NCBI GenBank assembly: GCA_021831685.1
Contig: JAKBMG010000159.1
Coordinates: 1 to 61,659, forward strand
From: Bacteroidota bacterium
GTDB lineage: Bacteria; Bacteroidota; Ignavibacteria; Ignavibacteriales; Ignavibacteriaceae
DNA: 61,659 nt
Reading direction: 5' to 3'
Positions 3,744 to 34,960 of this stretch are shown here, piece after piece; position 1 is the first letter of the stretch, and each line of letters begins with the position of its first letter. Position numbers and translations under genes: made by a program. The notes beneath the pieces are model-generated. The model ran no database searches, was not told the origin of the DNA, and worked only from the letters and a program-made list of their open reading frames with translations.

Positions 3744-4676
3744 CTATACAATAACAATTATTAATTGACCAGATGTTTTATTCCCAAATATATTTCTTCG
3801 GATTCCAGCGCTCTTTATCATCAGAAAAACCGGCTCGATGAATGAGTTTATCTTATCAATAACTTTAGCGAAATTACTTTCAGCAGTTAATTTATTACGA
3901 TTAAGAAATGAAGCCCACTGAGTTTGTTTCTGAGAATTGCTTTTGAAAGTATCTTCATAAATTTTATGCCGCAGCTCTATATTTGTTTCCCGGTGATTGA
4001 ATGTTGTTGTCATTGCCTTTTTAAGCAAATCTTTTTTGAACCGATAGTTACCCGCAAAAAAGAGGATATCATAAAAGTCTTTCATTCTGCTTGTCTCAAG
4101 CTGAAGTGAGACAACAGCCTCGAACTTTTCAGCAATGGCGCTTTCTACGGAGTAAACCTTCAAATGGGGGGCTGGAAAATCGAGCAAAACCGGAAATTCA
4201 ATTTCAACCGGGCCGCCGGTGATTTTATCGCCATAGCCAATATCTAATTGAATTCTTTCTTTTGTATTCTCAAGAAAAGCAAAGAACTTAATCCGGACGC
4301 CGTGGTAATCTCCATCCTCAACAATATTTTCAGAATCAATAAGAGAAGCGTCGAAGCGCAAACCGTCCTCATAATTTATATTTAGTATTTCTGCAATAAT
4401 TTCAGCAATCTCATCTTTTTCATTTGTTATGGAAGAGCCGAGAAAGTCAATGTCTTTTGTAGGGCGTGAACGGCTAATGTCGTGTGCGACGAAAAGTAAA
4501 GCGCCTTTTAAAATTAGGTTATTTGAATATGCTGACTTAGAAAGACGAAAAAGAAAACGTTCCTGTATATACTGGCGTAATAAGCTCTGAAATTCTTTAT
4601 CTGTTTGGATTGAAATGTTTCTAAGTCTTTCCTTAACCGAGGCGGATATATTTTTTAATTCTTTTTTCTTCTTCAT
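3744..4676 (-). CDS. abiEii: AbiEii-family nucleotidyltransferase toxin
   Basis: The 310-residue protein belongs to the AbiEii/nucleotidyltransferase-toxin family. It has the N-terminal LKGALLF segment followed by RPTKDIDFLG, the nucleotidyltransferase active-site motif with DxD. It then carries the conserved KDFYDILFFAGNYRF block. In the family this toxin transfers nucleotides (GTP, or pyrimidines onto tRNA in MenT relatives) and arrests growth, giving phage abortive infection. Its start overlaps the stop of the upstream antitoxin gene by 4 bases (ATGA), the usual translational coupling of AbiE pairs. The last residues (GQLIIVIV) look unlike the family, so the extreme C-terminus may have been replaced by foreign sequence. 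Confidence 0.88.
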   Translation of the reverse strand: MKKKKELKNISASVKERLRNISIQTDKEFQSLLRQYIQERFLFRLSKSAYSNNLILKGALLFVAHDISRSRPTKDIDFLGSSITNEKDEIAEIIAEILNINYEDGLRFDASLIDSENIVEDGDYHGVRIKFFAFLENTKERIQLDIGYGDKITGGPVEIEFPVLLDFPAPHLKVYSVESAIAEKFEAVVSLQLETSRMKDFYDILFFAGNYRFKKDLLKKAMTTTFNHRETNIELRHKIYEDTFKSNSQKQTQWASFLNRNKLTAESNFAKVIDKINSFIEPVFLMIKSAGIRRNIFGNKTSGQLIIVIV

Positions 4677-5269
4677 GAAAGTATTGCCTTTGTCATCGGT
4701 TCAATTTTTTTCTTTACGCCGCAGATATTTGAATATTCAAGAAGCTTCGGGATGTTTCTGGTTTTACGGTTTTTCAGATATTCTTTTAGTGATTCAACAG
4801 CTACATCTTCACCGAGCTTGTTCATATAACGGAAAAGGTCGCCGATTGTTTTTTCTTTGTTATAAATTTTAATTGTTCCGCTTTTTGTCTCGAGCGTTTC
4901 GATACCGGGTTCATAATAATTATCACCGAAGTAATAAACTTTTACTGGCGGATACCGAAGGACAAATTTATCCGTGTTGTTCGGAACTGCTACATAGATT
5001 TCCGACGGATTGAATGTCGTCAGCTCATAGTATGATGCAGCAGAGAGAAGGCAGATAACAGCTTTCTTGTTAGAGTTGCATACATCAGCAAAGCTGCCGT
5101 GTTCGTCCCAGGGATAATTAACAAGCTTGTAAAGACCGGGTTTGATCTTATCTATAATTCCACCTTCAACAGCCTTTGCAATATCTCTCGTCTGAATCCC
5201 GGATTTGCGGAGTTCATTCATCCGGGAATAGCCATTGTTTCTTTTAAATATTTTAGTGAGATTTTCCAT
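4673..5269 (-). CDS. abiEi: AbiEi-family antitoxin / transcriptional repressor
   Basis: The protein is about 198 residues. It has an N-terminal winged-helix region (NNGYSRMNELRKSGIQTRDIAKAVEGG, then IKPGLYKL) and a C-terminal antitoxin domain (VYYFGDNYYEPGIETLETKSGTIKIYNKEKTIGDLFRY), the AbiEi arrangement. AbiEi proteins neutralise AbiEii without forming a stable complex (type IV) and repress their own operon by binding inverted repeats. I prefer the ATG at 5269 over a TTG one codon earlier. A strong dyad lies 16-62 bp upstream and is annotated separately. Confidence 0.88.
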   Translation of the reverse strand: MENLTKIFKRNNGYSRMNELRKSGIQTRDIAKAVEGGIIDKIKPGLYKLVNYPWDEHGSFADVCNSNKKAVICLLSAASYYELTTFNPSEIYVAVPNNTDKFVLRYPPVKVYYFGDNYYEPGIETLETKSGTIKIYNKEKTIGDLFRYMNKLGEDVAVESLKEYLKNRKTRNIPKLLEYSNICGVKKKIEPMTKAILS

Positions 5270-5284
5270 CAATATTAATGCTGT

Positions 5285-6082: not shown

Positions 6083-7393
6083 ATGACACTTCGAGGTCAT
6101 GAAAATACGGCAACAAAACTACTTAAAATAGCAAAGGTGGCTTCAGAAAGTCATACATACAGATTTACCTCATTGGCAAGTTTGTTAAATGAAGAATATC
6201 TGGAAAGCTGCTTTAGCGAATTAAATAAACATAGAGCATCCGGGATTGACGGAGTCAGTCTGGAGGAATATGGCAGCGCACTAAAGGAAAACATTCACAA
6301 ACTCTGTGAAAAGATGAAGGAATTTTCCTATCGGCCACAGGCAGTACGAAGAGTAGGAATACCCAAAGCAAACGGGAAACTCCGCATGCTTGGAATACCA
6401 ACAGTGGAAGATAAAATCGTGCAGAGAGCCATAGCCGGAATACTGGAGGCGATATATGAACCATCGTTTTTAGACATATCCTATGGGTTCCGACCCAAAA
6501 GAAGCTGTCACGATGCGCTTGAGAAACTGGATAAAGCAATAGCCACCCGGCCAACGAGCTATATAATCGATGCTGATATTAAAGGGTTCTTTGATAACGT
6601 AAAGCATGAATGGATTATAAAATTCTTGGAACACCGGATAGCAGACAGAAACTTTATTAGGTTAATCAAGCGACTACTAAAAGCAAGTATAATGGAAGAG
6701 GGTAAATATTATGCGACAGAGGAGGGCACACCGCAGGGTGGAGTCGTCAGTCCAATACTTAGTAATATATACCTTTACTATGTACTTGACTTATGGGTAG
6801 AGAAAGTAGTGAAGAAGAAATGCAGAGGATATGTAGAAGAAATCAGATATGCAGATGATTTTGTAATCTGTGTGAAGAACAAAGAGGAAGCAGAAGACAT
6901 AATCAGTATGCTAAGAGAAAGACTAAAGAAATTTGGTCTGGAGCTGTCTGAGGAAAAGACGAGGTTAATACTATTCGGCAGATATGCCAAAGAAAAGCGG
7001 AAGCGACCTGAAACGTTCGATTTCTTAGGCTTCACACACTACTGTGATACCTCAAGAAGCGGGAAGTTTAAGGTCGGCAGACAGACAAGCCGGAAGAAAC
7101 TTATATCGAAGATAAAGGAAATGAATGTATGGCTAAAGAACATTAGGAATGTCTTTCCAATTGAGGATGTCTGGAAAACACTAAAGCAAAAACTCAGAGG
7201 GCATTATATGTACTACGGTATAGGCGGGAATTACCGCAAAATTGCCGGTTACTATTTTAGTGTCATCAAGCTAGTATTTAAGTGGCTGAACAGACGAAGT
7301 CAAAGGAAAAGCTATAACTGGGAGGGATTTATAAAATACCTGACCAAATATCCTTTACCTAAACCGAAAATATATCATGCTTATGGAAAATAA
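6083..7393 (+). CDS. ltrA: group II intron reverse transcriptase/maturase
   Basis: The 436-residue intron-encoded protein has the RT domain blocks: GIDGVSLEEY, IPKANGKLRMLGIPTVEDKIVQRA, SYGFRPKRSCHDAL, TPQGGVVSPILSNIYL, and the catalytic YADD at residues 256-259. A thumb/maturase X domain follows, ending in WLNRRSQRKSYNWEGF. The protein stops right after X, so the HNH endonuclease domain is absent. Such proteins splice the intron and retrohome using nicks or replication forks. A GGAG ribosome-binding site lies 8-11 bases before the ATG. The ORF is intact, so the intron may be active. Confidence 0.92.
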   Translation: MTLRGHENTATKLLKIAKVASESHTYRFTSLASLLNEEYLESCFSELNKHRASGIDGVSLEEYGSALKENIHKLCEKMKEFSYRPQAVRRVGIPKANGKLRMLGIPTVEDKIVQRAIAGILEAIYEPSFLDISYGFRPKRSCHDALEKLDKAIATRPTSYIIDADIKGFFDNVKHEWIIKFLEHRIADRNFIRLIKRLLKASIMEEGKYYATEEGTPQGGVVSPILSNIYLYYVLDLWVEKVVKKKCRGYVEEIRYADDFVICVKNKEEAEDIISMLRERLKKFGLELSEEKTRLILFGRYAKEKRKRPETFDFLGFTHYCDTSRSGKFKVGRQTSRKKLISKIKEMNVWLKNIRNVFPIEDVWKTLKQKLRGHYMYYGIGGNYRKIAGYYFSVIKLVFKWLNRRSQRKSYNWEGFIKYLTKYPLPKPKIYHAYGK

Positions 7394-12443: not shown

Positions 12444-12709
12444 TTAAGGAGCAGGGGGATTAGTGTTTGAGGTGTTATTGTTGGAATTTTCAGAAAAGTT
12501 TTGGGCGGCATTAGTACCGAAGGCGGAGGTAAGCATGATTAGCTTTTCTCATGTGAGTGTGTAAATGCCTTGGAGTGAAATTCCATAAGCCAATCTGCGA
12601 TGTACCAAAGTATTATGATTAACATTGAAATTCTTGCGGAACTTGGAGTGCCTTTGGTGTCGGAGATGATTTGTTTGAACAGTTGTAATATGTTTTGCAA
12701 AGTTTGCAT
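12444..12709 (-). pseudogene. second, decayed copy of the holin-like gene
   Basis: The stretch aligns base for base with the gene at 10421-10651 and with its upstream region. The ATG at 12709 begins MQTLQNILQLFKQIISD as in the intact gene. One T is missing near 12570 (aatgccttgg against aatgcctttgg), shifting the frame in the second half. After the shift the frame reads AQNFSENSNNN and stops at 12444. A direct duplication followed by decay is the simplest explanation. The AlbA-type gene lies between the two copies. Confidence 0.75.
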
Positions 12710-12959
12710 AGTAATTTTTTTTGAGAGGAAAGAAATAGCAAAGGGATTTTATAAGCACTGTAGAATTTGGTAAGTATTTCTAAAATAATTTATTAATAAA
12801 AGAAAAGTGGCCCATTTTAGGTGAACAAGAATAGTTTTATTAATGCAAACTGAAAGTTACAATAAACGATTTAAATTACCGAGAAGATCACCTATATAGT
12901 TGGTTATATAAAATTTATTTATGTGATAACCGCTTATTCTACATTAAAAGAAAAGAAGG

Positions 12960-14120
12960 TTAAATAATTTTTCTGAAATAACGAATTAACAGATCAATAA
13001 TTCTTCCGGAATCAGTAATTATTTCTCCATTTACTTTATATTCATATTTTAGCTTTGATAAATCAGACTTATCGTTATTAAAATTAACTTTAACAGTTAC
13101 CCTGTACAAGCCTGCATAGTTTGTATAGTTCCCATTATTGTTATTAATTTTTTCCGCGCCAATTGATATTATTGAGGCATCAAAAAGGCGATAATCGTCT
13201 TCAGATTGTAACGCAGTTAGCTTTATTTTTACCTTATCATTAATCTTAACCCGGTTTATGTCATCTTCTTTTACAAATAGTACTGCATCCCAATTCTTTG
13301 TCTCCGCTATAGCCATTAGATTAGCCCCCTGCTGTACAAAGCTGTTTGGAAGGTTTTCAATTCCTTCGGTTAATACAATGCCGGTAGAAGGTGATTTTAG
13401 TATTAACTGTTTTAATTTTTCTTGGATAATTCTTTCTTGCAGTAATAATCCTTTTAATTCAATTTGCAGTTGTGCAAAGGCGTACTTAAGTAATGTTTCC
13501 TTATTAATGTTTAGCCTGCATAATTTAATTGCAGTTTCAGCGGCATGTACATCAGCCATTGCATAATCTAAGGTAATATTTTCCCCTGACTTATAATTAT
13601 TTATTAAAGAATCTAAATTTGCCTTCGGAAAGAAACTCGAAATCCTATCTCTGAAAGAGGCTTTCGATTTAATTAGCCCCGCTTCGGCGCTATTTAATTC
13701 GAGTTCATTCTGTGTTTTATCAAAAACAGCATTTTTCATTTTTTGGTTAACGGCATTTTCATCAGACGCTATTTGAGATTGAATATCAAAAAGACTTTTC
13801 TTTAATTCTAATGAATCAAGAATTATTAATACCTGATTAACATTGACCGTATCGCCGCTTTTAACTAAAATTTTATTTATTATTCCGCTTTCCGGCGAAC
13901 GCAAAAGGATTATCTTTGAAGGAGAAAGTATCCCTTCGGCGCCTATTGTTAAATTAGTTTTAACAGTGAATAGAATAATTGCAGCAATTAAAGCAAAAGA
14001 AATTAGAATAATGAATGTTGCACTTACGGACTTATTTACAAGGCGTATTGGAAAAGTTCGTTTTATCTCAATCTCGGGAAGAGAAAAAATATTTTCTTTT
14101 TTATTTTGCTTTGCGTCCAT
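12960..14120 (-). CDS. HlyD-type membrane fusion protein of the RiPP exporter
   Basis: The 386-residue protein has a short cytosolic N-terminus, one transmembrane helix (about 31-52), a lipoyl/barrel-sandwich half motif (ILLRSPESGIINKILVKSGDTVNVNQVLIIL), a long coiled-coil hairpin, and the returning half (LKSPSTGIVLTEGI) followed by beta-barrel domains. This is the periplasmic adaptor architecture of ABC-type peptide and protein exporters. Its start lies 9 bp after the ABC transporter stop, so the two are translationally close. It would connect the exporter to an outer-membrane channel, which is not encoded here. It is the last gene of the minus-strand cluster beginning with the Cys-rich precursor. 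Confidence 0.85.
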   Translation of the reverse strand: MDAKQNKKENIFSLPEIEIKRTFPIRLVNKSVSATFIILISFALIAAIILFTVKTNLTIGAEGILSPSKIILLRSPESGIINKILVKSGDTVNVNQVLIILDSLELKKSLFDIQSQIASDENAVNQKMKNAVFDKTQNELELNSAEAGLIKSKASFRDRISSFFPKANLDSLINNYKSGENITLDYAMADVHAAETAIKLCRLNINKETLLKYAFAQLQIELKGLLLQERIIQEKLKQLILKSPSTGIVLTEGIENLPNSFVQQGANLMAIAETKNWDAVLFVKEDDINRVKINDKVKIKLTALQSEDDYRLFDASIISIGAEKINNNNGNYTNYAGLYRVTVKVNFNNDKSDLSKLKYEYKVNGEIITDSGRIIDLLIRYFRKII

Positions 14121-14129
14121 AAAAATTAA

Positions 14130-15917
14130 CTATAAAATTTTTAATAAAGATTCGTTTCTATTATCGCCGTTAAAATATATTTTCCTGTAAGTTTCACATC
14201 TTTCAATTAAGTCTTCATGAGACCCGAAATCCTGCACCTTTCCATTTTCAAGCAAACAAATTTTATCTGCAAGTGATGCGGTGGCAATTCGGTGTGTTAC
14301 AAAAATTATGGTCTTATCTTTTTCTTTTTCAAACAAATCTTTTAATATGTCAGCTTCCGTTTTCAAATCTATGTTTGAGGTGGCTTCGTCAAAAATAATT
14401 ATAGGCGTGTTTCTTATTATTGCTCTTGCAATTGCAAGCCGCTGGCGCTGCCCGCCGGAAATACATGCTCCCCATTCTGCAACGGGTGTATCTAATCCTT
14501 TGGGTAGCTTATTAATCAGCTCATCCATCCTTGATATTTTAATTGCGTTGGTTAAATCATTTTGATTAACATTATTTAATCCAATAGTAAGATTATCTAG
14601 TATAGACCCCTTAAACATGCTGAATTCCTGCCAAATAACAGATACTTGTTTCCTTAAATCAGACAGGGGTACTTGAGCTAATGGTATCCCATCATAAAAA
14701 ATATTACCTTCATCCGGAGTTTCCATTCCAACCAACAAACGTAAAAGTGATGTTTTCCCTGAACCGCTTGAACCTACAATTGATACAATAGATCTTGGCT
14801 TAATATTTAAACTTATGTCTTGAAGTACTTTGATATCTGTATTGTAACCAAAAGTCACTGCATTTATTTCAATATCACCCTTAAGTTGATTTATTATTTC
14901 AGAATGATTTTCTATAGAGCTGTCTGGTTCAATTTCAACCGGAGAATCTAAATATTCAAACATGCGGTTTAAGTTAATTGCAGATTGTTGGAAGTCTGAA
15001 AAGAGACCTACAAACTGAGTTAATGGGTTATACAAATACCCAATATAGGATGTAAATGCTATATAATCACCCAGGGTCATCTGATGCGATAATATAAACA
15101 TCCACCCTATCCATGTAAACAATGCAGTATTTAACGAACTTAGTACTCCGTTAGAAAGACCTAATACCTGTCCTATTCCACCTGCTTTTAATTGTATGTG
15201 CAGTGCGTTTTCTATTTGTTTTTTTGATTCTGAATATACATGGTGTTCAAGCGACATTACTTTTAGTGCACGGATATGTGTCAGCATTTCAAATTGAAAT
15301 GCGTTTAGGCTTGCATAAGCCTCAGCAGATTTTTTCCAATACCTTCTCAAAAATTTTCCGGTTAAGGTAATTATCATAATTGTTATTGGAAGGCTAATGA
15401 GAGACACTATTGCCAATTTCCATTGTAATAAGAACAAAAATGGTGGAACTAGGAGCAGGTAAATACCATTTACAAAAACAGTCTGCATAACTTTATTAAC
15501 AGCACCAAGGGATTGGCTTACATCGCTAAAGCGGCTCATTATTTCCCCAACACGATGTTCATCAAAGAATCGAATCTTTAGATGCTGAAGATGATTGAAA
15601 AACAACAAGCTTGTAGCATTACTTAACTTGGAATTTACATATAGATTAAAATAACCCTGTATAGTTCCAATTAATGTTGAAGTAATGTTTATTGCCAAAA
15701 TGCCAGCAACAATAACCTGCATTAGGGTTACGTCCTGAGATGGGTATACATTATCAATCAATAATTTTATTAAATAGGGAACTGCCAACCCGATAATACC
15801 AATTACAACTCCAAGTGATGTCCCTTTTACTAATTTTATCCAATAAGGTTTTATTAAAAGGAACAATCTTTTAAACTGCTGAAATGATTCCTTGAGCTTA
15901 GGTGTTTCATTACTCAT
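14130..15917 (-). CDS. ABC exporter (fused TM and ATPase domains), probable RiPP exporter
   Basis: The 595-residue protein has six transmembrane helices (about 20-330), a conserved FFDEHRVGEIMSRFSDV coupling region, and a nucleotide-binding domain with Walker A GSSGSGKT, signature ISGGQRQRL, Walker B IIIFDEAT and the H-loop THR. This is a type IV ABC half-transporter that works as a dimer. No N-terminal C39 peptidase domain is present, so the precursor leader must be removed elsewhere or not at all. Its place between the small membrane protein and the HlyD adaptor, in the maturase cluster, makes the modified peptide the likely substrate. Confidence 0.88.
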   Translation of the reverse strand: MSNETPKLKESFQQFKRLFLLIKPYWIKLVKGTSLGVVIGIIGLAVPYLIKLLIDNVYPSQDVTLMQVIVAGILAINITSTLIGTIQGYFNLYVNSKLSNATSLLFFNHLQHLKIRFFDEHRVGEIMSRFSDVSQSLGAVNKVMQTVFVNGIYLLLVPPFLFLLQWKLAIVSLISLPITIMIITLTGKFLRRYWKKSAEAYASLNAFQFEMLTHIRALKVMSLEHHVYSESKKQIENALHIQLKAGGIGQVLGLSNGVLSSLNTALFTWIGWMFILSHQMTLGDYIAFTSYIGYLYNPLTQFVGLFSDFQQSAINLNRMFEYLDSPVEIEPDSSIENHSEIINQLKGDIEINAVTFGYNTDIKVLQDISLNIKPRSIVSIVGSSGSGKTSLLRLLVGMETPDEGNIFYDGIPLAQVPLSDLRKQVSVIWQEFSMFKGSILDNLTIGLNNVNQNDLTNAIKISRMDELINKLPKGLDTPVAEWGACISGGQRQRLAIARAIIRNTPIIIFDEATSNIDLKTEADILKDLFEKEKDKTIIFVTHRIATASLADKICLLENGKVQDFGSHEDLIERCETYRKIYFNGDNRNESLLKIL

Positions 15918-16158
15918 TACTTATTACAAATTACTGTTTTTATGAACGATGGGAATAGACTTCATTCTCTATTCACATGTAAAAATGGAAGTAAGGATTT
16001 ATTAGCAAATTCTATAAGATTATTCTAATGTCAAAAATTATAATTACAAAATTTTTGTAATTTCTATAGAATAAAGACCATTTTTCATTTTCTTCTTTAC
16101 AATAATTAAAAAATAATGAATTTAAATTAGCTGCTATGAAAGCCGATTATTTCCTCTT

Positions 16159-16548
16159 TTATTCCGACTTATCCAAGTAACTTTCAAAGTCATACACTTT
16201 TATTATTGTACCAATACCAAATACAAAAATAAATATACTTAATTGATTAAGTTCGTGAAAAATCAATGCATTTTTCAAGAAACTAATAATGGCTACTACA
16301 CAAACGGATATACCAACCCACAATGATTGGGTATATGAACTATGAAAAGAAAGTTTGTTTTTTAATTTTACTTTTTCCAGTTTTTCTTTATTTAATAATG
16401 AACCACTATTAATCATAGTTGGAAGAGCTGTACCTAAAATAAATGCTAGTATTACTGTACCGACTATTAGAAAATTGTTAATCGGAAAATTTGAAATTGG
16501 CAAAAAATAACCGATGGAAATTGACAGTAAAACTAATAATATTTTCAT
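16159..16548 (-). CDS. small four-helix membrane protein in the RiPP cluster (possible immunity protein)
   Basis: The 129-residue protein has four hydrophobic segments: about 2-18, 24-46, 74-92 and 98-116. It ends in a charged tail (DFESYLDKSE). No known family is recognised. It begins 28 bp after the radical-SAM gene stop and precedes the exporter, the usual spot for immunity or export-helper proteins in peptide clusters. The immunity role is inferred from position only. Confidence 0.55.
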   Translation of the reverse strand: MKILLVLLSISIGYFLPISNFPINNFLIVGTVILAFILGTALPTMINSGSLLNKEKLEKVKLKNKLSFHSSYTQSLWVGISVCVVAIISFLKNALIFHELNQLSIFIFVFGIGTIIKVYDFESYLDKSE

Positions 16549-16576
16549 TCTTAGTTAATTTAACAGATTAATAAAT

Positions 16577-17929
16577 TTATATTTTGCTTTCATTATTTAT
16601 TGATCTATTTTGGATCATAATGTTTGTGTTGATGAAATCGTCAATAAAATGTTTAGAAATATGACATGAATCAAAATCCGTACCATACCATTTATTTTTT
16701 AATCTTAGTAACGAACAGCCACCACCGCATACCATAAATAGATTACAATTCTTACAATTCAAATCATCCAAGTAATCTTCTTCCACAAGAAACTGAGCTA
16801 AGATTTTTGTGTTTGTAATATATTCGGGATCATTTACATTACCTACAGCAAGTTCAGATTCACCAACTATTGTTGCACATTTATAAATATACCCTTTGGG
16901 ACCAATTGCATAACTATTTTTTGTTCTTGCCATACAGCTACCCTGATTTTTCTTGGGAAGGAAATCAGTCCCAATAATACCATTATTTCGATACAAATCT
17001 AAGAAAAAAATTGCTTTCTCAGTATTTGACAGATTAAAACTACAATCATCTGGAACAGATTTACAAACTCTACCATATTCTGTAATAAAACCTGGATATA
17101 TTTGTATTTGTTCTTTGTGTTCAAAAAACTTTTCAATTAAGAATTGATAGATTTTTACAAATTGAGATTTATTATTATTATCAATATTTACGCGAATCTT
17201 AATTTTGAATTTCTTACTAATCATAACAGTCTGTTTTATATTTTCTATAATAATATCAAAAGTGTTCTTGTTATTTTTTGCTGGTCTTCTTTGATCGTGT
17301 TCATTAAACAAACCATCTATGGTTAATTGTATTTCATATATCTTTAGTCTATCTAACTTCCTAATTATTTTGTCACTCAATAGAACCCCGTTGGTTACTA
17401 TTGATTGCCTAAATTCTATATTATCAATATTCTTAATATTAGCATTCAAACCATCTATGATTTTTTCAATTTTATCAACAGCTAATAGTGGCTCCCCGCC
17501 AATCCAAGTTATCCCAACTATTTTTTTATCGCTTTTATTAATGTTTGAAGAAACAAAATTAATTGTATTGGAAACTGTTTCTACATCCATAGTATGGCGG
17601 GTATAAGTCGATTGGAAACAATAGGGGCACTCTAGATTACAAGCAAGAGTTGGATAAATAAAAACGTCAAAAACACTATCTGATTTTCTATAATTTTTGA
17701 CTTCATTAATGTAATTATTAATTTCTTCTGTTTCATTTTCTATAAAAATTTTGTATTTAATTAATTGCTCTCTTTGTTGAACATTTTCTAACAACGCTGG
17801 ATCTTTTTTAACATTCATAAGTTTAACTAAATTATTTGGATCCAATTTTATCAAAGCATTTGTATTAAAATTATAAAGATAATGTTTTTCATCTTTCTGA
17901 AAGATATAATTATATTGCGACCACTGCAT
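16577..17929 (-). CDS. radical SAM/SPASM peptide maturase
   Basis: The protein is 450 residues from the ATG at 17929, which has AAGGGA 8 bases upstream; I prefer it to an upstream in-frame start. The N-terminus (WSQYNYIFQKDEKHYLYNFNTNALIKLD) is the short domain usual in peptide-maturing SPASM enzymes. The radical-SAM cluster motif is C97-x3-C101-x2-C104 (TLACNLECPYCF), followed by WIGGEPLL. The C-terminal SPASM region includes GSCMARTKN, YKCATI, C392-KN-C395 and MVCGGGC, enough Cys for auxiliary 4Fe-4S clusters. Such enzymes make thioether (sacti/ranthipeptide) or C-C links in a ribosomal peptide. The Cys-rich precursor 262 bp upstream is the likely substrate. Confidence 0.9.
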   Translation of the reverse strand: MQWSQYNYIFQKDEKHYLYNFNTNALIKLDPNNLVKLMNVKKDPALLENVQQREQLIKYKIFIENETEEINNYINEVKNYRKSDSVFDVFIYPTLACNLECPYCFQSTYTRHTMDVETVSNTINFVSSNINKSDKKIVGITWIGGEPLLAVDKIEKIIDGLNANIKNIDNIEFRQSIVTNGVLLSDKIIRKLDRLKIYEIQLTIDGLFNEHDQRRPAKNNKNTFDIIIENIKQTVMISKKFKIKIRVNIDNNNKSQFVKIYQFLIEKFFEHKEQIQIYPGFITEYGRVCKSVPDDCSFNLSNTEKAIFFLDLYRNNGIIGTDFLPKKNQGSCMARTKNSYAIGPKGYIYKCATIVGESELAVGNVNDPEYITNTKILAQFLVEEDYLDDLNCKNCNLFMVCGGGCSLLRLKNKWYGTDFDSCHISKHFIDDFINTNIMIQNRSINNESKI

Positions 17930-18190
17930 AATATTCCCTTGTAATGATTGATAATATAGTGTTATTAGTAGATGCATTTCCAAACCAAACACACCATTCA
18001 AGGAATCCGTAAAAACAGGTTTACTGGGAATGGATGAACCTTTAACATATTTTATTAGTATACTTAATTAAACTGTGGCTATTATCAGGCACATCTTTAA
18101 TTCATCATTATAATTTCGCATATGATAAACTTATACATGGATGAAATTAAATTTTGAACGGCGACCCAGTGAAATTAACACAAAAAATGG

Positions 18191-18412
18191 TTATGTGTAC
18201 ACTACATTGGTACATGCACAACTAATTAAACACATTAAGCAAATAATAGCTGGGAAACATAGATCTGTTGAAGCCGGTGTAGCAGTAGTAGGCTCATTCA
18301 ATACATCAAATTGAATGTTATTATGATCTGTAATAGAATTGGAATTATTAGGAACTTGGTTCTGTAAATCAGCACTATAAGAACCAACAAAAGGAACATT
18401 AATTTTCGGCAT
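18191..18412 (-). CDS. Cys-rich RiPP precursor peptide
   Basis: The 73-residue protein has a polar leader (MPKINVPFVGSYSADLQNQV..., no membrane segment) and a hydrophobic Cys-rich core near the C-terminus. The core contains CFPAIICLMCLISCACT with Cys52, 58, 61, 65 and 67. A perfect GGAGG ribosome-binding site stands 7 bases before the ATG. It is first in the minus-strand order precursor, SPASM maturase, membrane protein, ABC exporter, HlyD adaptor. The Cys spacing (5,2,3,1 residues between) and the hydrophobic core fit a thioether-linked sacti- or ranthipeptide, but I do not recognise the family. There is no double-glycine cleavage site, so leader removal is unclear. Confidence 0.8.
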   Translation of the reverse strand: MPKINVPFVGSYSADLQNQVPNNSNSITDHNNIQFDVLNEPTTATPASTDLCFPAIICLMCLISCACTNVVYT

Positions 18413-19231
18413 GACAATCCTCCAATATTGTTGTTATAATGTAATAAATATATCCTGATATTAATCGAATCCTAAAATCGGTTTAACATCATGTAAAAAA
18501 ATTAATTCTTTAAATTTATATTAAAAGAATAAAAACCTTTGCACAATATCCAAAACCGGAATTTTATGAAATCCGGTATTCCGGAATAATATACCCTTAG
18601 AATAATTTTTTCAAAACATTAAGAAATTTCTTGATTTAGCATCCTTGTAGTTACAGAAAGTATTTAAATTCTGAAGTAAAGCTACTTAGTTTATTGTTTC
18701 AATTTTGATAGTTCTACAATATTTGTTTTATTTTTCACCATCGTGTACACTATTATGGAAAATTATTGTATGCTACGGATCTCTTTATAATAATAGGGAT
18801 CTTTTTGAAATTTTTTTATACGGCATAGATAATTTTGTTAAATGTTGGCTTTTCCATTTAGATTTGGAACCCGATATAATTTAAACCAAGATAGAATTAA
18901 CCTCTACATCCCTTTACATAACTCGCTAACAATTCCACAAAAATTGCGTAATAATATTATTTGAGAAATACTTTTTATTTTAGGTTTTATTTGTTATCAA
19001 GAAGCTAAAGCGTTTTTAGTGCAGAAACATAATTACTTAATGCCATTTACCAACTACTAATAAAAATACCTTCACATATTTTGAATAAGACTGGCATAAA
19101 AAAACTTTTTATAAAAAAAGATTAACTTAGAAAGTTATCAAAACATGCAGCATCTCCAATATTGAAAAAATAATTGGTTGCCACAGCTAAATGAGTTAGA
19201 TTATAATATTATTCTTCAATATTTTGAAAAA
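18413..19231. other. intergenic region upstream of the RiPP precursor
   Basis: No convincing gene is present on either strand. It is AT-rich and must contain the promoter for the minus-strand RiPP cluster. A hairpin with arms accgga / tccggt (18555-18560 and 18572-18577) and a third ccggaat half-site at 18581 lies about 145 bp upstream of the precursor start. This could be an operator or an upstream terminator. I found no second precursor-like peptide here. Confidence 0.45.
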
Positions 19232-21094
19232 TTATTCTTCAACTGGTAAACCCGCAAGCTTCATAATTTTTAATGCATTTGTTGTAGGACATGGACCGTT
19301 ATATAGTTTATAATCAAAAATCATACTACCATCCTTTATTTCCTCTTTAAAATGGTAATTCTTAAGCTTTGAAATTGTATTCGATAATTTTACAAGCTCA
19401 AAGTCATGCGTTGCTATAGCACCTAAGGCATTTGTTTCTGCGAGCTTTTTAATAATCATCGAGCCGCCTTTCAAACGCTCAATATTGTTTGTCCCTCTAA
19501 ATATTTCATCTAACAAAAAGAAAACAGGATATTCTGATTTTTCAATTTCATCGAGTAACTCTTTTAATCTTTTAACTTCGGCGTAGAAAAAAGAAATGCC
19601 GTTGGTTAATGAATCATTTACCTTTATGCAAGTGAATAATTTAAATAGAGAAATTTTCAGTTCATTAGCATTTACGACGCTTCCTGCATAGGCCAGCGAA
19701 AGGTTAATCCCGAATGTTTTGATCAATGTACTTTTTCCGGACATATTTGACCCAGTTATCAATGCAATTTCTCCTGCTGGATTAAATGTAAAATCGTTAC
19801 ATGTTTTAGTTTCATTTTTAATTAAAGGATGTCCTAAGTTTTTGGCACTGAAGATAATTTGATTATTTGGAGAATCAATTATTACTGGAAAAGTATAGCT
19901 AGGATTTAGATATGCAAAATTAGCTAGCGAACTCAATGCCTCGAGTTTATTCCAACAATACACCCATATAGTGTACTTTTCTAAAACAAGATGTTTATAT
20001 TTATTCAGCTTGAGCTTAAAATAAAGGTCAACAGGGAATAGTATTCTTATCAAATTCCACATATATGGATTAGCCTTTCTCATTCTCAACAACTCAACAG
20101 AGTTCTTTATCTTATTCATTAAAAATGAGGGTTGCTCTTTGCTCGTTTTAAATATTTCGCACATTTTCAATAATCTTGAATTAGCTTTGTAATGGTAATT
20201 CTCAAGGTACTTAAATAGTATAATAATCTTTCCAAGTTCATCGGACATATATTCAGCCTCATCCGAAAGCCTGTCCTTATCTTTATTACAGAAATAAAAC
20301 AGCAGCACATAGATTAGACTTGATATACCCCAGTACGCGGGTAAGATGTTCCAAAGATTCAAGATAATAAAAAATAGATTGGCTGGGGCCAAAATCATTA
20401 ATAAAATATAAATGAAATTAAATTGTTTCGAAAGAACTTCTTTTTTATCAAATAGTTTATGGAACATTTCAGCATCAAACTCTCTACGCGAAGATAATGT
20501 TGAATAAAGTGTCAGCTTGTCTCTGAAAGTAGCTAATGGAATTAATTCTTCAATTAATTTTTGTCTATCGATGATTTCATCAATGGAATGAATATCTGAA
20601 TTGAGCCATTCTTTAAGCATTAATTTGGACTGCCTGGATGTCCCTGTATTAATCAATTGATACAAAGATTCATTGCCAATTAGGTCAAGATCTATCTCAT
20701 TTGGTTTGGACTTTTGCGATATGCCAATATTAGAAAAAAAATCAATTTGCGGGATATTACGCCAATCAAGGTCCAAGCGTGCAACATGAACCGTTTTAAT
20801 ATTTATCCATAGTTCTAATTTTTTGATACCATATATGAGTTTATTGTGGTAGTGAGAAATTACTGCGAAAACTATGAAGAAAACTGCAACCGAGATTAAG
20901 GTTGCGTTATCTGATGCCAAAAAGAAAAGGATGAAAAAAATTATAACTTCCATTAAAAAAAACAACAATCTGAAATTTGAATAATTTTTACTAAGTCTTT
21001 GGAGATTCTTTTTCTTTAAATTTAATTTTTCAATTAATCCTAAAAGATAACTCTTCCTGTTTTCTGAACAATTGTTTAATCCCGAACGCATCAT
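19232..21094 (-). CDS. membrane-anchored MutS-family ATPase (not canonical mismatch repair)
   Basis: The 620-residue protein has two transmembrane helices near the N-terminus (about 44-80) and another pair around 225-265. A MutS core/lever-like region (LNSDIHSIDEIIDRQKLIEEL) and a MutS domain V ATPase follow, with Walker A GSNMSGKST, Walker B FLLDEIFRGTN and ATHDFEL. It lacks the mismatch-recognition domain I with its Phe-x-Glu motif. Membrane MutS-like proteins of this shape are widespread in Bacteroidetes-Chlorobi genomes with unknown function. It lies upstream of the RiPP cluster on the same strand, with 820 bp between, so co-transcription is unlikely. Confidence 0.85.
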   Translation of the reverse strand: MMRSGLNNCSENRKSYLLGLIEKLNLKKKNLQRLSKNYSNFRLLFFLMEVIIFFILFFLASDNATLISVAVFFIVFAVISHYHNKLIYGIKKLELWINIKTVHVARLDLDWRNIPQIDFFSNIGISQKSKPNEIDLDLIGNESLYQLINTGTSRQSKLMLKEWLNSDIHSIDEIIDRQKLIEELIPLATFRDKLTLYSTLSSRREFDAEMFHKLFDKKEVLSKQFNFIYILLMILAPANLFFIILNLWNILPAYWGISSLIYVLLFYFCNKDKDRLSDEAEYMSDELGKIIILFKYLENYHYKANSRLLKMCEIFKTSKEQPSFLMNKIKNSVELLRMRKANPYMWNLIRILFPVDLYFKLKLNKYKHLVLEKYTIWVYCWNKLEALSSLANFAYLNPSYTFPVIIDSPNNQIIFSAKNLGHPLIKNETKTCNDFTFNPAGEIALITGSNMSGKSTLIKTFGINLSLAYAGSVVNANELKISLFKLFTCIKVNDSLTNGISFFYAEVKRLKELLDEIEKSEYPVFFLLDEIFRGTNNIERLKGGSMIIKKLAETNALGAIATHDFELVKLSNTISKLKNYHFKEEIKDGSMIFDYKLYNGPCPTTNALKIMKLAGLPVEE

Positions 21095-25505: not shown

Positions 25506-25558
25506 AGCAGTTTTTATTTTCTTTTGTCTTGATACAAAAGAAACAAAAAATCAAGACT

Positions 25559-25681
25559 GCAAATAAATTCCTAAAATTTTGTTCCATTACGCTAAAGAAA
25601 AAGAACTCGCTTCGCTCAAACAGCTTTTTCTTTATAACGCTTCATTACACAAAATTTTTATACGGAATTTATTTGAGGTCA
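25559..25681. repeat. long interrupted palindrome, best-preserved copy
   Basis: The arms gcaaataaattcctaaaatttt and aaaatttttatacggaatttatttg flank inner arms ctaaagaaaaag / ctttttctttata and a centre aactcgcttcgctcaaacag. The element sits between excisionase and integrase, and an integrase frame stays open through it, though the likely integrase start lies after it. Upstream, tcttgatacaaaag..aaaaaatcaaga (25528-25556) forms the accompanying small hairpin. Confidence 0.75.
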
Positions 25682-25714
25682 GCTTTTGGAACAAAAGAAA
25701 GGCGCAATTTTTCA

Positions 25715-26806
25715 ATGGCGCGGGAACGAAAAAACGAAAGAAAAATAAGTGAGTCTATTATGGAAGGCTTGACAAGTTTGCTTGGAAAATTGAGTGTGGA
25801 AGATATTGAGAAGCTGAAGCTTCTGATGTCTTTTACTACTGAAGCAAAAGAAGTTGTAACGCTGCGGGTGTTTGCTGATGAATATAAAAATCTGATTAAG
25901 AATAATAGATCTACTTCTTACCATCATTCAATAACAATTGCATTGAATAATCTTATTGAATTTTTCGGACCTCAAAAAGCTATTAACAACATTACTCAAA
26001 AAGATGTTGAAACCTTCCTGGTATATCTACAGCAAAAAATAAGGAAAGGACATGTTGTGTATTATAGAAATCTAAAAGCTGCTTTCAATAAAGCTAAAGA
26101 TTGGGGATATGTGAAAGAAAATTTTTTCGTTAAAGTAAAATTGCCTAAGAGACAAAAGACAGCGCCGGCGTTTATCAATAGCAATCAGCTTTCAGCTATC
26201 AGCAATCAGATTAAAGATGATGTTGTTAGAGATGTTGTAACAGTTGGATTTTATACCGGCATGAGGTTGAATGAGATTGTCAAGTTAAAGTGGAAGAATG
26301 TAAATCTTTCAACACGGATAATTACTGTCGGAGATGAGGAATTTATTACTAAAGGAAGAAACCAAAGGTTTATTCCGGTAAGCGATGAAACGCTTACCGC
26401 ATTCCACTTACAAAGGGAGAAAAGGAATGCAATACCTATTGGAGATAGTTATGTGTTTTGCAAAAGTAACGGTGAAAAATTTACCGGTGATCATTTTTCC
26501 AGAAGATTTAAGAGTGCTTGTAAGAAAGCCGGAATAGATAAGTCAATTCATTTCCATTCGCTGAGGCATAGTTTTGCTTCGAACTTAGCACAACAGGGAG
26601 TTTCCTTATATAAGATCAAAGAATTATTGGGACACGCTTCTATTACCACTACGGAAATTTATTCTCATTTGAATATTGATTCGTTGAGGGATGCTATTAG
26701 TAAGCTGGATGATATTGGCCCAGATAGGACAAATTCGACAGAGAGGACAGATAAAAATATGAATAAGCAGTCTACTTCGGGACTCCGATTAATAACAAAC
26801 AAATAA
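25715..26806 (+). CDS. tyrosine recombinase (integrase) of the integrative element
   Basis: The protein is about 363 residues from the ATG at 25715. I reject the longer frame reaching 25529 because it translates the palindromic repeat. There is a SAM-like core-binding domain (about 60-150) and a catalytic domain with Arg in TGMRLNE, HSLRH (HxxR), the GHAS His and the Tyr nucleophile in TEIYSHL. It is closely related in sequence to the second integrase at 33944-34960. It should integrate and excise the element that also carries the excisionase and prim-pol/helicase genes. Confidence 0.9.
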   Translation: MARERKNERKISESIMEGLTSLLGKLSVEDIEKLKLLMSFTTEAKEVVTLRVFADEYKNLIKNNRSTSYHHSITIALNNLIEFFGPQKAINNITQKDVETFLVYLQQKIRKGHVVYYRNLKAAFNKAKDWGYVKENFFVKVKLPKRQKTAPAFINSNQLSAISNQIKDDVVRDVVTVGFYTGMRLNEIVKLKWKNVNLSTRIITVGDEEFITKGRNQRFIPVSDETLTAFHLQREKRNAIPIGDSYVFCKSNGEKFTGDHFSRRFKSACKKAGIDKSIHFHSLRHSFASNLAQQGVSLYKIKELLGHASITTTEIYSHLNIDSLRDAISKLDDIGPDRTNSTERTDKNMNKQSTSGLRLITNK

Positions 26807-27323: not shown

Positions 27324-29687
27324 ATGAAATTTAGTGCGTTAGCAATTTCTTATAATAAAAAGTTTGGGTTTAATGTTTTGCCGGTGCAAGGCAAGAGACC
27401 TACTATAGCCTGGGAGAATTGGCAGCTGATTGAACAAACGGAAAAAGATGTGGCTGGTCTTGGTTGGAATGCCGGAGTAACCGGCATCGGCGGGATATGC
27501 GGGATAAATGATATTAGGAATTTGGATTTCGATAAAATAGTAGATTTAAGTTTTGTTGAAATGTTTGCAAAGCGATTGGGTCTGGGTGAAATTTATCCTT
27601 GGATTATAAAGAGCGGAAGCGGGAACGGTTTTCATATATGGTTTAAGTTAAGTGAGAGCGAAGAGCTGCATAAAAAATTAAATGGTCCTAAAAGCGTTTA
27701 CCATCTTAATCCGAAGGAGGACGAACTTTGCGATCATATTGAACTGAGGTGGTGTAATTCAATGACGGTACTGCCTTACTCAAAGCATCCGTCTGGGAAT
27801 GTTTATACTTTTAAGTACGGAAAGCCTGACGAAGCTCCGAAAGAAATTAGTGCAGATGTACTGCTTGAATGTCTGGAAGAATTTTGCGACTTAGAAAAAG
27901 AGAAGGAGGTGCTTGCCGTAGGCAAGAGAACTTTCGAGCCGGCTGGATTTGATAAAGAAAAATTAGAAAGCGCGATTGAGTTTTTAGGCGCGAAGCTTCC
28001 GGGCAATTGTTATGAGGAATGGTATAGAATAGGATTCGGACTTGTAACTATTGGAGAGGACGGACGGAAATATTTTTTGCAGATGAGTTTAAGTAACCAA
28101 TATTATCATGACTCGGAGTTTGAAATAAATAAAAAATTTGATGAGCTGCTGCGGAAGTATGACGGAAGAATAACTCTTGGAACTGTTTATCATATTGCAG
28201 AGAAGTATGGGTGGCAAAAACCGTTTGTTAAATTCTGGTTTATAGAGAATGATAAAACAAAAATATCAAAACAGAATTTCAAAAGGTTTCTTGAAGAAAA
28301 TGGTTTTTGCAAGATTCAATTAGAGCACGGCTATATTTTGCTGAAGGTAAGCAAAAATATTGTGCGGGAAGTGGAGATATTTAATATCAAGGATTTTGTT
28401 ATTGATAGATTGAAGCGGTTAGATGAAGAATATTTTAAGGACACACCAAAGCTGAAGGTAATTGATGCAGTTATTAAAGGAGCTGGGCAACATTTTGTAA
28501 ATGGGTTCCTTGAATTCCTAGAGACAAGGGACTTAGTATTTTTACGCGATACTAAGGATAAAGGATTTTTATTTTTCACAAATTGTTTTGTAGAGATTGA
28601 ACAAAATAAAATTGCTGTTAAAAGATATGAGGAGCTTGAAGGATATATTTGGGATAAGCAAGTAATCCAGAAAAAATTTAGTGGTGAGAAAAAGGAATCT
28701 GAATTTGAAAAGTTTATCCAGAATATTTGCAATAATGATGAACAAAGAATTTTGTCTTTCCGGAGTGCGATAGGATATCTACTGCATAACTACAAAGACT
28801 CGACAAATGCCAAGGCGGTGATCTTTCTTGATGAGAAGCTTAGCGACGGCGCTTATGGAAGAAGCGGAAAGGGATTAGTTGCTCAAGCAATCGGGAAGCT
28901 TAGAAAAACTGTTAGACTGGATGGAAGGAATTTTAATTTCTCTAAGAGCTTCAGCTTTCAATCGATTACCCTGGATACTGCGATTATTGAGTTTAATGAT
29001 GTAACTAAGAAATTCAATTTTGATAAACTGTTTTCTATCATTACTGATGATATTACTGTTGAGAAGAAAAATCAGAATGAGATAATTATTCCATTTCATC
29101 AATCGCCTAAGATAATTATTTCTACGAACTATACGATTGAAGGATCCGACGATTCAACTTTGGACAGGCAATTTATTATTGAGTTTTCGGACCACTATAA
29201 TAAATCGCATAGACCGATTGATGAGTTTAGACATCGCTTCTTTGATGAGTGGGATAGTCAAGAGTGGAATAATTTTCATAATTATATGATTGGATGTTTG
29301 CAGCTGTATTTGAACCGAGGATTAATTCAGTGTGCTCATGTAAATCTTGAAAAGAAAAAATTGATTGATTCGACTTGTGAGGAGTTTGCAGAATTTTTTG
29401 AAGCTCTGGATTTTTCTATTGAACATAATAGAAAAGTATTGATGGATAATTTCAAGAATGAATATGATGATTTTGAGGAAATGAAGTTGACTAAGTTTAC
29501 AAGATGGTTGAAGGAAGCTGGAAGGATAAAAAATCTTAAAGTGATTGAAAGAAAATCCGGGAGCGAAAGATATATACGATTTGAAAACCCTCATTCCCGA
29601 AATGAATTCGGGACAGGCTCTTTATCCTTCTCCCAAAGGGCGAAGGAATGTTCTAAAGAGTTTGGACAGATGGACACTTTGTTTTGA
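27324..29687 (+). CDS. prim-pol / superfamily 3 helicase replication protein
   Basis: The 787-residue protein has an N-terminal bifunctional primase-polymerase domain with the acidic motif NLDFD near residue 70 and SGSGNGFHIWF near 93-103. A PriCT-like segment follows (AIEFLGAKLPGNCYEEWYRIGFGLV...). The C-terminal SF3 helicase has Walker A GRSGKGLV, a Walker B-like TAIIEFND and sensor IIISTN. This combination starts replication in phages, plasmids and satellite elements. The last ~30 residues (PHSRNEFGTGSLSFSQRAKE) are encoded by a palindromic dispersed repeat (tcccga..tcgggacaggc) and probably replaced the native end. Iteron-like repeats follow directly. Confidence 0.88.
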   Translation: MKFSALAISYNKKFGFNVLPVQGKRPTIAWENWQLIEQTEKDVAGLGWNAGVTGIGGICGINDIRNLDFDKIVDLSFVEMFAKRLGLGEIYPWIIKSGSGNGFHIWFKLSESEELHKKLNGPKSVYHLNPKEDELCDHIELRWCNSMTVLPYSKHPSGNVYTFKYGKPDEAPKEISADVLLECLEEFCDLEKEKEVLAVGKRTFEPAGFDKEKLESAIEFLGAKLPGNCYEEWYRIGFGLVTIGEDGRKYFLQMSLSNQYYHDSEFEINKKFDELLRKYDGRITLGTVYHIAEKYGWQKPFVKFWFIENDKTKISKQNFKRFLEENGFCKIQLEHGYILLKVSKNIVREVEIFNIKDFVIDRLKRLDEEYFKDTPKLKVIDAVIKGAGQHFVNGFLEFLETRDLVFLRDTKDKGFLFFTNCFVEIEQNKIAVKRYEELEGYIWDKQVIQKKFSGEKKESEFEKFIQNICNNDEQRILSFRSAIGYLLHNYKDSTNAKAVIFLDEKLSDGAYGRSGKGLVAQAIGKLRKTVRLDGRNFNFSKSFSFQSITLDTAIIEFNDVTKKFNFDKLFSIITDDITVEKKNQNEIIIPFHQSPKIIISTNYTIEGSDDSTLDRQFIIEFSDHYNKSHRPIDEFRHRFFDEWDSQEWNNFHNYMIGCLQLYLNRGLIQCAHVNLEKKKLIDSTCEEFAEFFEALDFSIEHNRKVLMDNFKNEYDDFEEMKLTKFTRWLKEAGRIKNLKVIERKSGSERYIRFENPHSRNEFGTGSLSFSQRAKECSKEFGQMDTLF

Positions 29688-33943: not shown

Positions 33944-34960
33944 TTATAATAAATTTACTGCATCCATCAAGTTTTGATTTTGCAAGTGCGAATAAATTTG
34001 AGTTGTGCTCAAATCTTCATGACCTAACAGTTCTTTCACAACATAAAGAGAAACACCGCGTTGAACGAGCATTGAAGCGAATGAATGACGTAAAGTGTGG
34101 AAATGTATTTTATCATCAAGACCGGCAGCGCGAACTGATTTTTTGAATTGCTTACTAATAAAATTTTCATTGAGCTTAATTTCACTTGTACGAGTAAAGA
34201 CAAAATCATTATTTTCTAAATCAATAATCTTGCGGGATTGGTTAGCGAATAAATTAATTAAGACTAAATTCATAGGTATAATTCTTTCCTTTTTGCTTTT
34301 GGTTGTGAAAGTAGCTGAGCACTGGACTTTGATTATATTTTGTTGAAAGTCTATCCAGTTCCATTTCATGTTTAGTATTTCGCCTAAGCGCATACCTGTA
34401 TAAAAGGCAGTGATGAATAAATCTTTTAAGTATTGCTGCGGAGTATTCACAATTATATTTTGAAATTCTATTGATGAAATAAAAACCGGAAAAGTTTTTA
34501 TAGGCTTTGGAGCTTTGATTTTCTTAAACGGATTTTCTGAAAGATAATTCCAAACTACAGCTTTGCTGAAGGCAGCTTTTAAAGTTCGGTAATAAAGAGA
34601 AGCTGCTTTAGGTGCACGTGCATAGATGGTAGTTATAAATTTATCCAGGGTTCTTGTATCAATACGATTAATATTTATATCTCCGCAAAATAATTTTAGT
34701 TGAGAGAAAGAAAGACCGATTGATCTTAAATAACTTTTAGATTTGGAATTTGAAATGTACGAGGAATACTCTTCATAAAATTTTGACAATGTGATGTTTT
34801 TAATTTGCTGTTTTTGTTCATGAGGTGAAACATGAAAACCTCCCATAAACTTATAGGCTTCTTGCAGGTTGGTTGTTTTGGTTGAAATGGTTGTACGCTT
34901 ACCGTTTACTTCATAGGTAAGCTGTAAGAAAGGCGACTTCTTAGATTTTGAAATGAACAT
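33944..34960 (-). CDS. tyrosine recombinase (integrase) of the tRNA-borne island
   Basis: The 338-residue protein has an N-terminal arm-binding-like part (MFISKSKKSPFLQLTYEVNGKRTTIST), a core-binding domain, and a catalytic domain with Arg in TGMRLGE, HTLRH (HxxR), the GHED His and the Tyr in TQIYSHL. An AGGAGG ribosome-binding site precedes the ATG. Its start lies about 90 bp from a tRNA 3' fragment, the usual place of a tRNA-targeting integrase. It is related to the integrase at 25715-26806. The mer operon lies on its inner side. Confidence 0.9.
   Translation of the reverse strand: MFISKSKKSPFLQLTYEVNGKRTTISTKTTNLQEAYKFMGGFHVSPHEQKQQIKNITLSKFYEEYSSYISNSKSKSYLRSIGLSFSQLKLFCGDININRIDTRTLDKFITTIYARAPKAASLYYRTLKAAFSKAVVWNYLSENPFKKIKAPKPIKTFPVFISSIEFQNIIVNTPQQYLKDLFITAFYTGMRLGEILNMKWNWIDFQQNIIKVQCSATFTTKSKKERIIPMNLVLINLFANQSRKIIDLENNDFVFTRTSEIKLNENFISKQFKKSVRAAGLDDKIHFHTLRHSFASMLVQRGVSLYVVKELLGHEDLSTTQIYSHLQNQNLMDAVNLL

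Follow-up and report, generated by a model that had tools for sequence, protein, structure and literature searches.

What does a 73-codon open reading frame (ORF) with five closely spaced cysteines encode when it lies ahead of a radical S-adenosylmethionine (radical SAM) enzyme gene and an exporter? The question is raised by a 61,659-nucleotide stretch of DNA (positions 1-61,659 of contig JAKBMG010000159.1, assembly GCA_021831685.1) of a Bacteroidota bacterium from the family Ignavibacteriaceae, called the window below. The best explanation, which we hold with moderate confidence, is a radical SAM cluster for a ribosomally synthesized and post-translationally modified peptide (RiPP), in which a SPASM maturase with a RiPP recognition element (RRE) would produce a hydrophobic thioether peptide for a pinensin-type exporter, the leader being cut by a protease encoded elsewhere. 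It is highly probable that the RiPP reading itself is right, and likely that the product carries thioethers.

The gene cluster and its maturase

Five intact ORFs lie in the same direction on the minus strand, in the order precursor, maturase, four-transmembrane (four-TM) protein, ATP-binding cassette (ABC) exporter and HlyD adaptor, just as an earlier note made from the sequence alone had described them. The precursor (18191-18412, 73 residues) is preceded by the ribosome-binding site (RBS) that the note had pointed out, a Shine-Dalgarno GGAGG at 18419-18423, 6 nt 5' of the ATG. It is composed of a hydrophilic leader and a hydrophobic cysteine-bearing core (residues 1-49 and 50-73, approximately), and its monoisotopic mass without modification is 7889.72 Da. 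The five cysteines stand where they had been placed (52, 58, 61, 65 and 67; spacing C-X5-C-X2-C-X3-C-X-C). The core, DLCFPAIICLMCLISCACTNVVYT, has one acidic residue and no basic residue, is rich in I, V, L and M, and is as strongly hydrophobic as claimed (mean hydropathy 2.08 over residues 52-70). A double-glycine site had been reported missing, and the only GG, GA or GS pair in the precursor is indeed a GS at position 10. Third-position GC is 0.20 in the precursor, 0.21 in the maturase and 0.20 in the four-TM gene, and 0.28 and 0.26 in the ABC and HlyD genes.

The maturase gene occupies 16577-17929. Alignment with homologues places its start at the ATG at 17929 (450 residues), not at the TTG at 18001, because their conserved N-terminus (MxWSRYN) begins there. 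The protein matches Radical_SAM in Pfam (PF04055, 51.9 bits), and the CX3CX2C cysteines (C97, C101 and C104) are invariant in the alignment. The SPASM pattern is CX9-15GX4C ... CX2CX5CX3C ... C, and all seven of its cysteines are present in the alignments (C332, C351, C392, C395, C401, C405 and C422), which bears out the assignment as a SPASM enzyme; the SPASM profile itself (PF13186) scores 17.2 bits, below its cut-off of 21.5. Among NCBIfam models the best scores (against cut-offs) are 188/525 bits for TIGR04463, 182/600 for Clo7bot, 181/600 for CefB and 162/400 for the geopeptide maturase. The three nearest are maturases named after cysteine-rich peptides.

An AlphaFold2 model of the maturase has a mean predicted local distance difference test score (pLDDT) of 90.2. 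Its best Foldseek match is CteB, which is also the best PDB match by sequence (residues 85-407). Among solved structures, CteB matches residues 4-440 (Z 26.7) and TigE (8vpo) residues 1-441 (Z 22.2), while structures of the anaerobic sulfatase-maturating enzyme (anSME) match over 85-443 only (Z 27.8). The N-terminal 81 residues are predicted to form three strands followed by three helices, the βββ-ααα order that defines RREs in the excerpt consulted (PMC12710340). When this domain was modelled alone (pLDDT 85.5), the best nine solved entries were all RiPP-pathway proteins (TbiB1, lasso B1, McbBCD, ThcOx and PbtF), with Z scores of 7.6 to 5.2. The models thus support a predicted leader-binding RRE domain at the N-terminus and speak against a sulfatase maturase. 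A sulfatase maturase, the identity by which the earlier note would have been overturned, was rejected because the anaerobic sulfatase maturase model TIGR03942 gave only 89.9 bits (cut-off 349, versus 188 bits for TIGR04463) and the anSME fold match is confined to residues 85-443.

Relatives of the maturase are distant. Matches were found in 6 of 80 genomes of the family, in 25 of 391 genomes of a class sample and in 35 of 395 of a phylum sample, the source genome being included each time. The other five family members share at most 35% identity with the window enzyme, and the phylum matches at most 37%, the highest identity among all relatives found. Those within the family represent another subfamily, with a methyltransferase gene and a thioredoxin-reductase fusion as neighbours (judged by sight, and by Pfam for the like genes of loci L080 and L081). 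The top-scoring phylum relatives all come from one family (f26), where many adjoin small ORFs that we take to be Nif11-like; the maturase of a genome named Chlorobium phaeovibrioides (L103) is identical to one f26 sequence. The best named relatives, among the matches listed, are largely Bacteroidales (at most 36%). Searches of genome_contigs and viral_contigs with the maturase sequence alone found no relative, and the alignment-based search of genome_contigs is a sample, so that closer relatives may exist. In a tree of 131 sequences, chosen for similarity to the window maturase and not including sulfatase maturases, the window enzyme falls inside a clade of 53 (Shimodaira-Hasegawa approximate likelihood-ratio support 99). 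Its partners there are two genes, one from a Parabacteroides plasmid and one from a member of the Marinilabiliaceae (support 90), and its branch has a length of 0.71.

Two other peptides were encountered beside SPASM enzymes during these searches. One is a conserved peptide of 31-37 residues, MKSLIKK...AQCCAKxSxxxxGCHD, present in nine loci (L042:2838-2933, L080:2847-2957, L081:7675-7788 and L082:4836-4949, and by six-frame translation in L009, L010, L011, L012 and L070). In L080, L081 and L082 it sits between a methyltransferase gene and a SPASM radical SAM gene, and the L080 enzyme adjoins a thioredoxin/thioredoxin-reductase fusion; the peptide is a candidate substrate of the adjoining SPASM enzyme. 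The other is a short ORF ending PGxNCxxCNxxxCVPD, presumably geopeptide-like, which comes after a radical SAM/SPASM gene in a single genus of this class (g59; L073:7791-7907, L075:1596-1712, L077:6608-6757 and L078:7390-7539).

The chemistry of the maturase could differ from thioether formation within the same kind of RiPP cluster. The enzyme might act on Ile, Val or Leu side chains, forming cyclopropyl-type or other C-C bonds, or epimerise residues, with the cysteines forming disulfides or binding metal. TigE, the other full-length structural match, acts on isoleucine, and the core is well supplied with aliphatic residues. The radical SAM maturase TvgB makes cyclopropylglycine from valine, according to the part of the source consulted (PMC9062424), and this counts in the same direction. 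However, CteB is the best match both by PDB sequence and by Foldseek, nothing in the core stands out as much as its five clustered cysteines, and the three closest NCBIfam models take their names from cysteine-rich peptides. We therefore consider a product without thioethers unlikely.

The precursor as the probable substrate

A chance origin of the precursor ORF was rejected. When the 1230-bp intergenic stretch was simulated with a first-order Markov model, a comparable ORF (ATG start, 40-120 residues, at least five cysteines within the last 25) together with GGAGG arose in none of 3000 runs, and in 2 of 3000 when the RBS was not required. It is also the sole ORF in the window with such cysteines, whether or not an RBS is demanded. 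Its codon usage, judged by a table built from 25 window genes, is gene-like: its score is reached by 5 of 89 shadow ORFs (55-95 residues) and matches or exceeds that of 117 of 150 gene segments. The RNA between the precursor and maturase genes has a fold z-score of 0.16, and the idea that it forms a structured element was rejected.

The precursor has no match in Pfam, NCBIfam (SCIFF models included) or PHROGs, and thus belongs to no known precursor family in these collections. A search of 116 relatives at E 0.01 returned two matches, the source genome and G067 (E 0.008, 35% over 40 residues, with internal stops). In the order, matches at E ≤1 came from 51 of 160 genomes, the source genome included, and G067 was again the best foreign match. 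Fourteen foreign matches were assigned a locus; 12 of these contain stops, and we therefore read them as chance. The plasmid collection held nothing better than E 5. No convincing homologue was thus found among the 116 relatives, the 160 order genomes and the plasmids, with genome_contigs, viral_contigs, phages and E. coli unsearched. Nor was such a precursor described in the titles and opening abstract lines of open-licence papers, among the matches listed.

We then surveyed 22 loci of the maturase clade by eye for same-strand small ORFs with at least two cysteines within 1.2 kb. A cysteine-bearing small ORF adjoins 15 of the 22 maturases, with a double glycine ahead of the cysteine region at 13 and without one at L095 and L100; L094 is doubtful, and six loci lack such an ORF on the maturase strand, L090 having one on the opposite strand. 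In 16 of these ORFs the most hydrophobic 19-residue segment with two cysteines scores -0.44 to 1.03, versus 2.17 in the window precursor. Among the 22 loci read, a small cysteine-bearing ORF beside such maturases is therefore common, and the hydrophobic type without double glycine is seen only in the window. The conservation of the small ORF, on which the earlier note had hung its interpretation, thus stands for the presence of cysteine-bearing ORFs beside related maturases but not for the sequence of the window precursor, of which no homologue was found. As a separate observation, a C-X-C followed soon by T, G or N (SCACTN in the core) recurs, by eye, in small ORFs of L101, L110, L113 and L116.

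These results bear on a second alternative, in which the small ORF does not supply the substrate. The maturase would then be an orphan or act on another peptide, and the ORF would be a short membrane protein or a remnant. The failure to find a conserved relative and the 261-bp gap to the maturase gene are what this alternative would lead one to expect. The rarity of the ORF, its gene-like codons, strong RBS and position ahead of the maturase, and the lack of any other five-cysteine ORF in the window, all argue the opposite, and make the alternative very improbable.

Exporter cassette and proposed leader removal

The ABC exporter (14130-15917, 595 residues; PF00664 from residue 33, and PF00005) has no match to a peptidase domain at E 0.01, and the adjoining adaptor (12960-14120, 386 residues) is a HlyD-family protein (PF13437), so that the peptidase-less exporter pair recognised earlier was recovered. 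At E 1e-20 HlyD matches are rare: 5 of the 164 order genomes searched have one, as do 6 of 391 in the class sample (the source genome included both times). Seven exporter loci were found in all, counting the window. ABC/HlyD identities to the window are 77/83% in G001, 68/47% in G101, 62/43% in G705, 62/40% in G077, 56/33% in contig C143 of the source genome and 47/31% in G276. In a concatenated ABC and HlyD tree the window pairs with G001 (100/100) and is joined by G101 (95/95), within lanthipeptide-type loci (88/92 and 94/97); G276 forms a long branch.

The genes that accompany the exporter differ among these loci. G101 (L178) encodes LanB N- and C-terminal proteins, LanC and a pinensin leader (29.7 bits, cut-off 24), and G077 (L180) encodes LanC and a pinensin leader (25.4 bits). 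G705 (L179) has LanB N, LanB C and LanC, and the precursor tested there has no NCBIfam match. G276 (L205) has a CcpM/RumMC-like radical SAM enzyme (328/500 and 236/720 bits, score/cut-off), beside which lies a 71-codon cysteine-rich ORF with a strong RBS and Gly/Cys repeats (L205:12753-12968; GGGGCSCNCSCGCVCSC). In G001, from the same genus as the window, there are cysteine-rich small ORFs and a radical SAM/SPASM sequence that is spread across two frames. When the window was compared by blastn with a 19-kb stretch of G001, the similarity (77.5% DNA identity) covered the exporter cassette at 12957-15918 and stopped at the gene borders; beyond it, only 44 bp at 5284 matched. The precursor, maturase and four-TM genes also have a lower third-position GC than the two exporter genes. 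The simplest reading is that the cassette has changed partners.

Further observations concern two of the exporter-bearing stretches. In L177:2437-10740, from the same genus, the close exporter homologue is accompanied by two S8 proteases, a radical SAM gene that reads in two frames and a 131-residue cysteine-rich ORF. The source genome itself has a second ABC and HlyD pair (L181:7822-12165; G000, contig C143), after which come a short S8-like protease gene and a 51-residue ORF with AAGGAGG as its RBS; none of the neighbours tested there was recognisable as a RiPP-modifying enzyme.

An S8 protease (by Pfam) follows HlyD at five of the six sister loci (G001, G101, C143, G705 and G077), and a sigma-54 activator takes that place in G276. 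The lack of a leader peptidase noted earlier was borne out: no S8 protease was found in the window by tblastn with six sister-locus S8 proteins (best E 0.09). Since the protease is present at five of six sister loci and missing here, the leader is probably cut in trans. Elsewhere in the source genome PF00082 occurs in at least four places, in addition to the C143 protease (26.6 bits by hmmscan); the count is a lower bound, since the PF00082 search did not list the C143 protease. Unclustered proteases have been reported for lanthipeptides, among them an S8 protease for paenilan, in the part of the article consulted (PMC8960859).

The missing protease could also indicate a decaying cluster, assembled by exchange, that lost its protease and no longer makes an active product. 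Its presence at most sister loci is the point that suggests this. On the other hand, none of the five ORFs is interrupted and no catalytic cysteine has been lost, unclustered lanthipeptide proteases are documented, and the genome encodes S8 proteases at other places, including the C143 sister cluster. Decay thus seems to us quite improbable.

The four-TM protein (16159-16548, 129 residues) has the four hydrophobic segments attributed to it. Of 164 genomes searched in the order, three have a homologue, the source genome among them; all three are of one genus, and by reading the homologues adjoin genes without a visible RiPP link. An immunity or export-helper role would be a guess.

Elsewhere in the window, two phage-type integrases and one primase-polymerase (25529-26806, 33944-34960 and 27324-29687) suggest one or two integrative elements. 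Positions 6083-7393 and 3744-5272 hold a reverse transcriptase gene, and an AbiEii-type nucleotidyltransferase gene with an adjoining gene without Pfam match.

The proposed pathway and its known counterparts

The leader-core precursor, the SPASM maturase with its predicted RRE and the pinensin-associated exporter type are read from sequence or predicted structure. On this basis, the RRE would dock the precursor leader, and the maturase, using SAM and three iron-sulfur clusters, would form thioethers between some of the five core cysteines and residues close by, as in sactipeptides (Cys to an α-carbon) or ranthipeptides (Cys to a β- or γ-carbon). The ABC and HlyD exporter may then pump the peptide out, and a subtilisin-like or other protease encoded elsewhere would remove the leader. 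The product would be a small hydrophobic, membrane-active peptide, probably directed against competitors. That it is instead a signal or a metal-binding compound is scarcely credible: thiol-rich peptides can bind metals, but nothing specific favours this, and the strongly hydrophobic core and the sister exporters in lanthipeptide-type clusters count against it.

Several results weigh against the proposed thioether RiPP cluster. The maturase lies below cut-off for the best 25 of the 64 NCBIfam models matched, for which reason membership in the maturase families that these models name was rejected. Whole-enzyme Z scores tie between anSME and CteB. The N-terminal domain alone matches weakly (best Foldseek E 0.2, Z ≤7.6), and CteB's own domain ranks 12th to 13th (Z 4.8-4.7), behind two unrelated NO66 entries. 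Because no precursor homologue was found, the core draws no support from conservation. The intergenic gaps are, in gene order, 261, 28, 241 and 9 bp, and those between precursor and maturase (261 bp) and between the four-TM and ABC genes (241 bp) speak against taking a single operon for granted; a simple scan of 12500-19300 found no terminator-like site. The absence of the S8 protease from the window belongs here as well.

A radical SAM RiPP cluster is nevertheless well supported. The earlier note had called it an undescribed system, which is too strong: the precursor and the combination are new, but the maturase superfamily, the RRE and the exporter are of known kinds, and this is not a new class on present evidence. 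A more ambitious view is that the locus represents a RiPP subclass, defined by a leader without double glycine, a TM-like C-X5-C-X2-C-X3-C-X-C core and a new RRE-SPASM branch, whose membrane-spanning thioether peptide would leave by a pinensin-type exporter cassette that swaps between lanthipeptide and radical SAM clusters, and would lose its leader in trans to an S8 protease that a different cluster of the source genome encodes; we regard this as doubtful. If the proposed cluster is real, it adds an orphan precursor, a distant SPASM maturase and an unusually greasy core to the radical SAM RiPPs of Bacteroidota. Orphan radical SAM RiPP clusters are common, and the surprise is therefore moderate. 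It would also suggest that peptides of two chemically unrelated classes share a single exporter cassette, in which case the exporter is probably blind to the modification and could be reused.

Among known systems, the ranthipeptide maturase CteB of the SCIFF system (PDB 5wgg and 5why) shares with the window enzyme the full-length fold, including the N-terminal RRE, as well as the SPASM cysteines and the leader-core logic. However, identity is about 21%, the window precursor has no SCIFF match in NCBIfam, and TIGR03974 gives the maturase 99 bits against a cut-off of 425. The TIGR04463, Clo7bot and CefB maturases provide the top profiles with near end-to-end alignment, yet their scores are far under the cut-offs and the window precursor matches no NCBIfam model. 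Bacteroidales clusters with double-glycine leaders (for example L089, L091, L107 and L084) contain the nearest maturases in the tree, with a small cysteine-bearing ORF adjoining, but 16 such ORFs reach a segment hydropathy of at most 1.03 compared with 2.17 here, most have a double glycine, and some of the exporters appear C39-like at their start (by eye).

For the exporter, the counterparts are the pinensin-family lanthipeptide clusters (G101 and G077, and G705 by its LanB and LanC), which use the same ABC and HlyD family. Unlike these, the window has a radical SAM maturase in place of LanB, LanC and the S8 protease; LanB, LanC and the pinensin leader have no Pfam or NCBIfam match among its five genes. 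The cluster of G276 likewise combines a radical SAM enzyme, a cysteine-rich small ORF with a strong RBS and an exporter of the same family, whereas its maturase comes from another subfamily and its ORF has Gly/Cys repeats.

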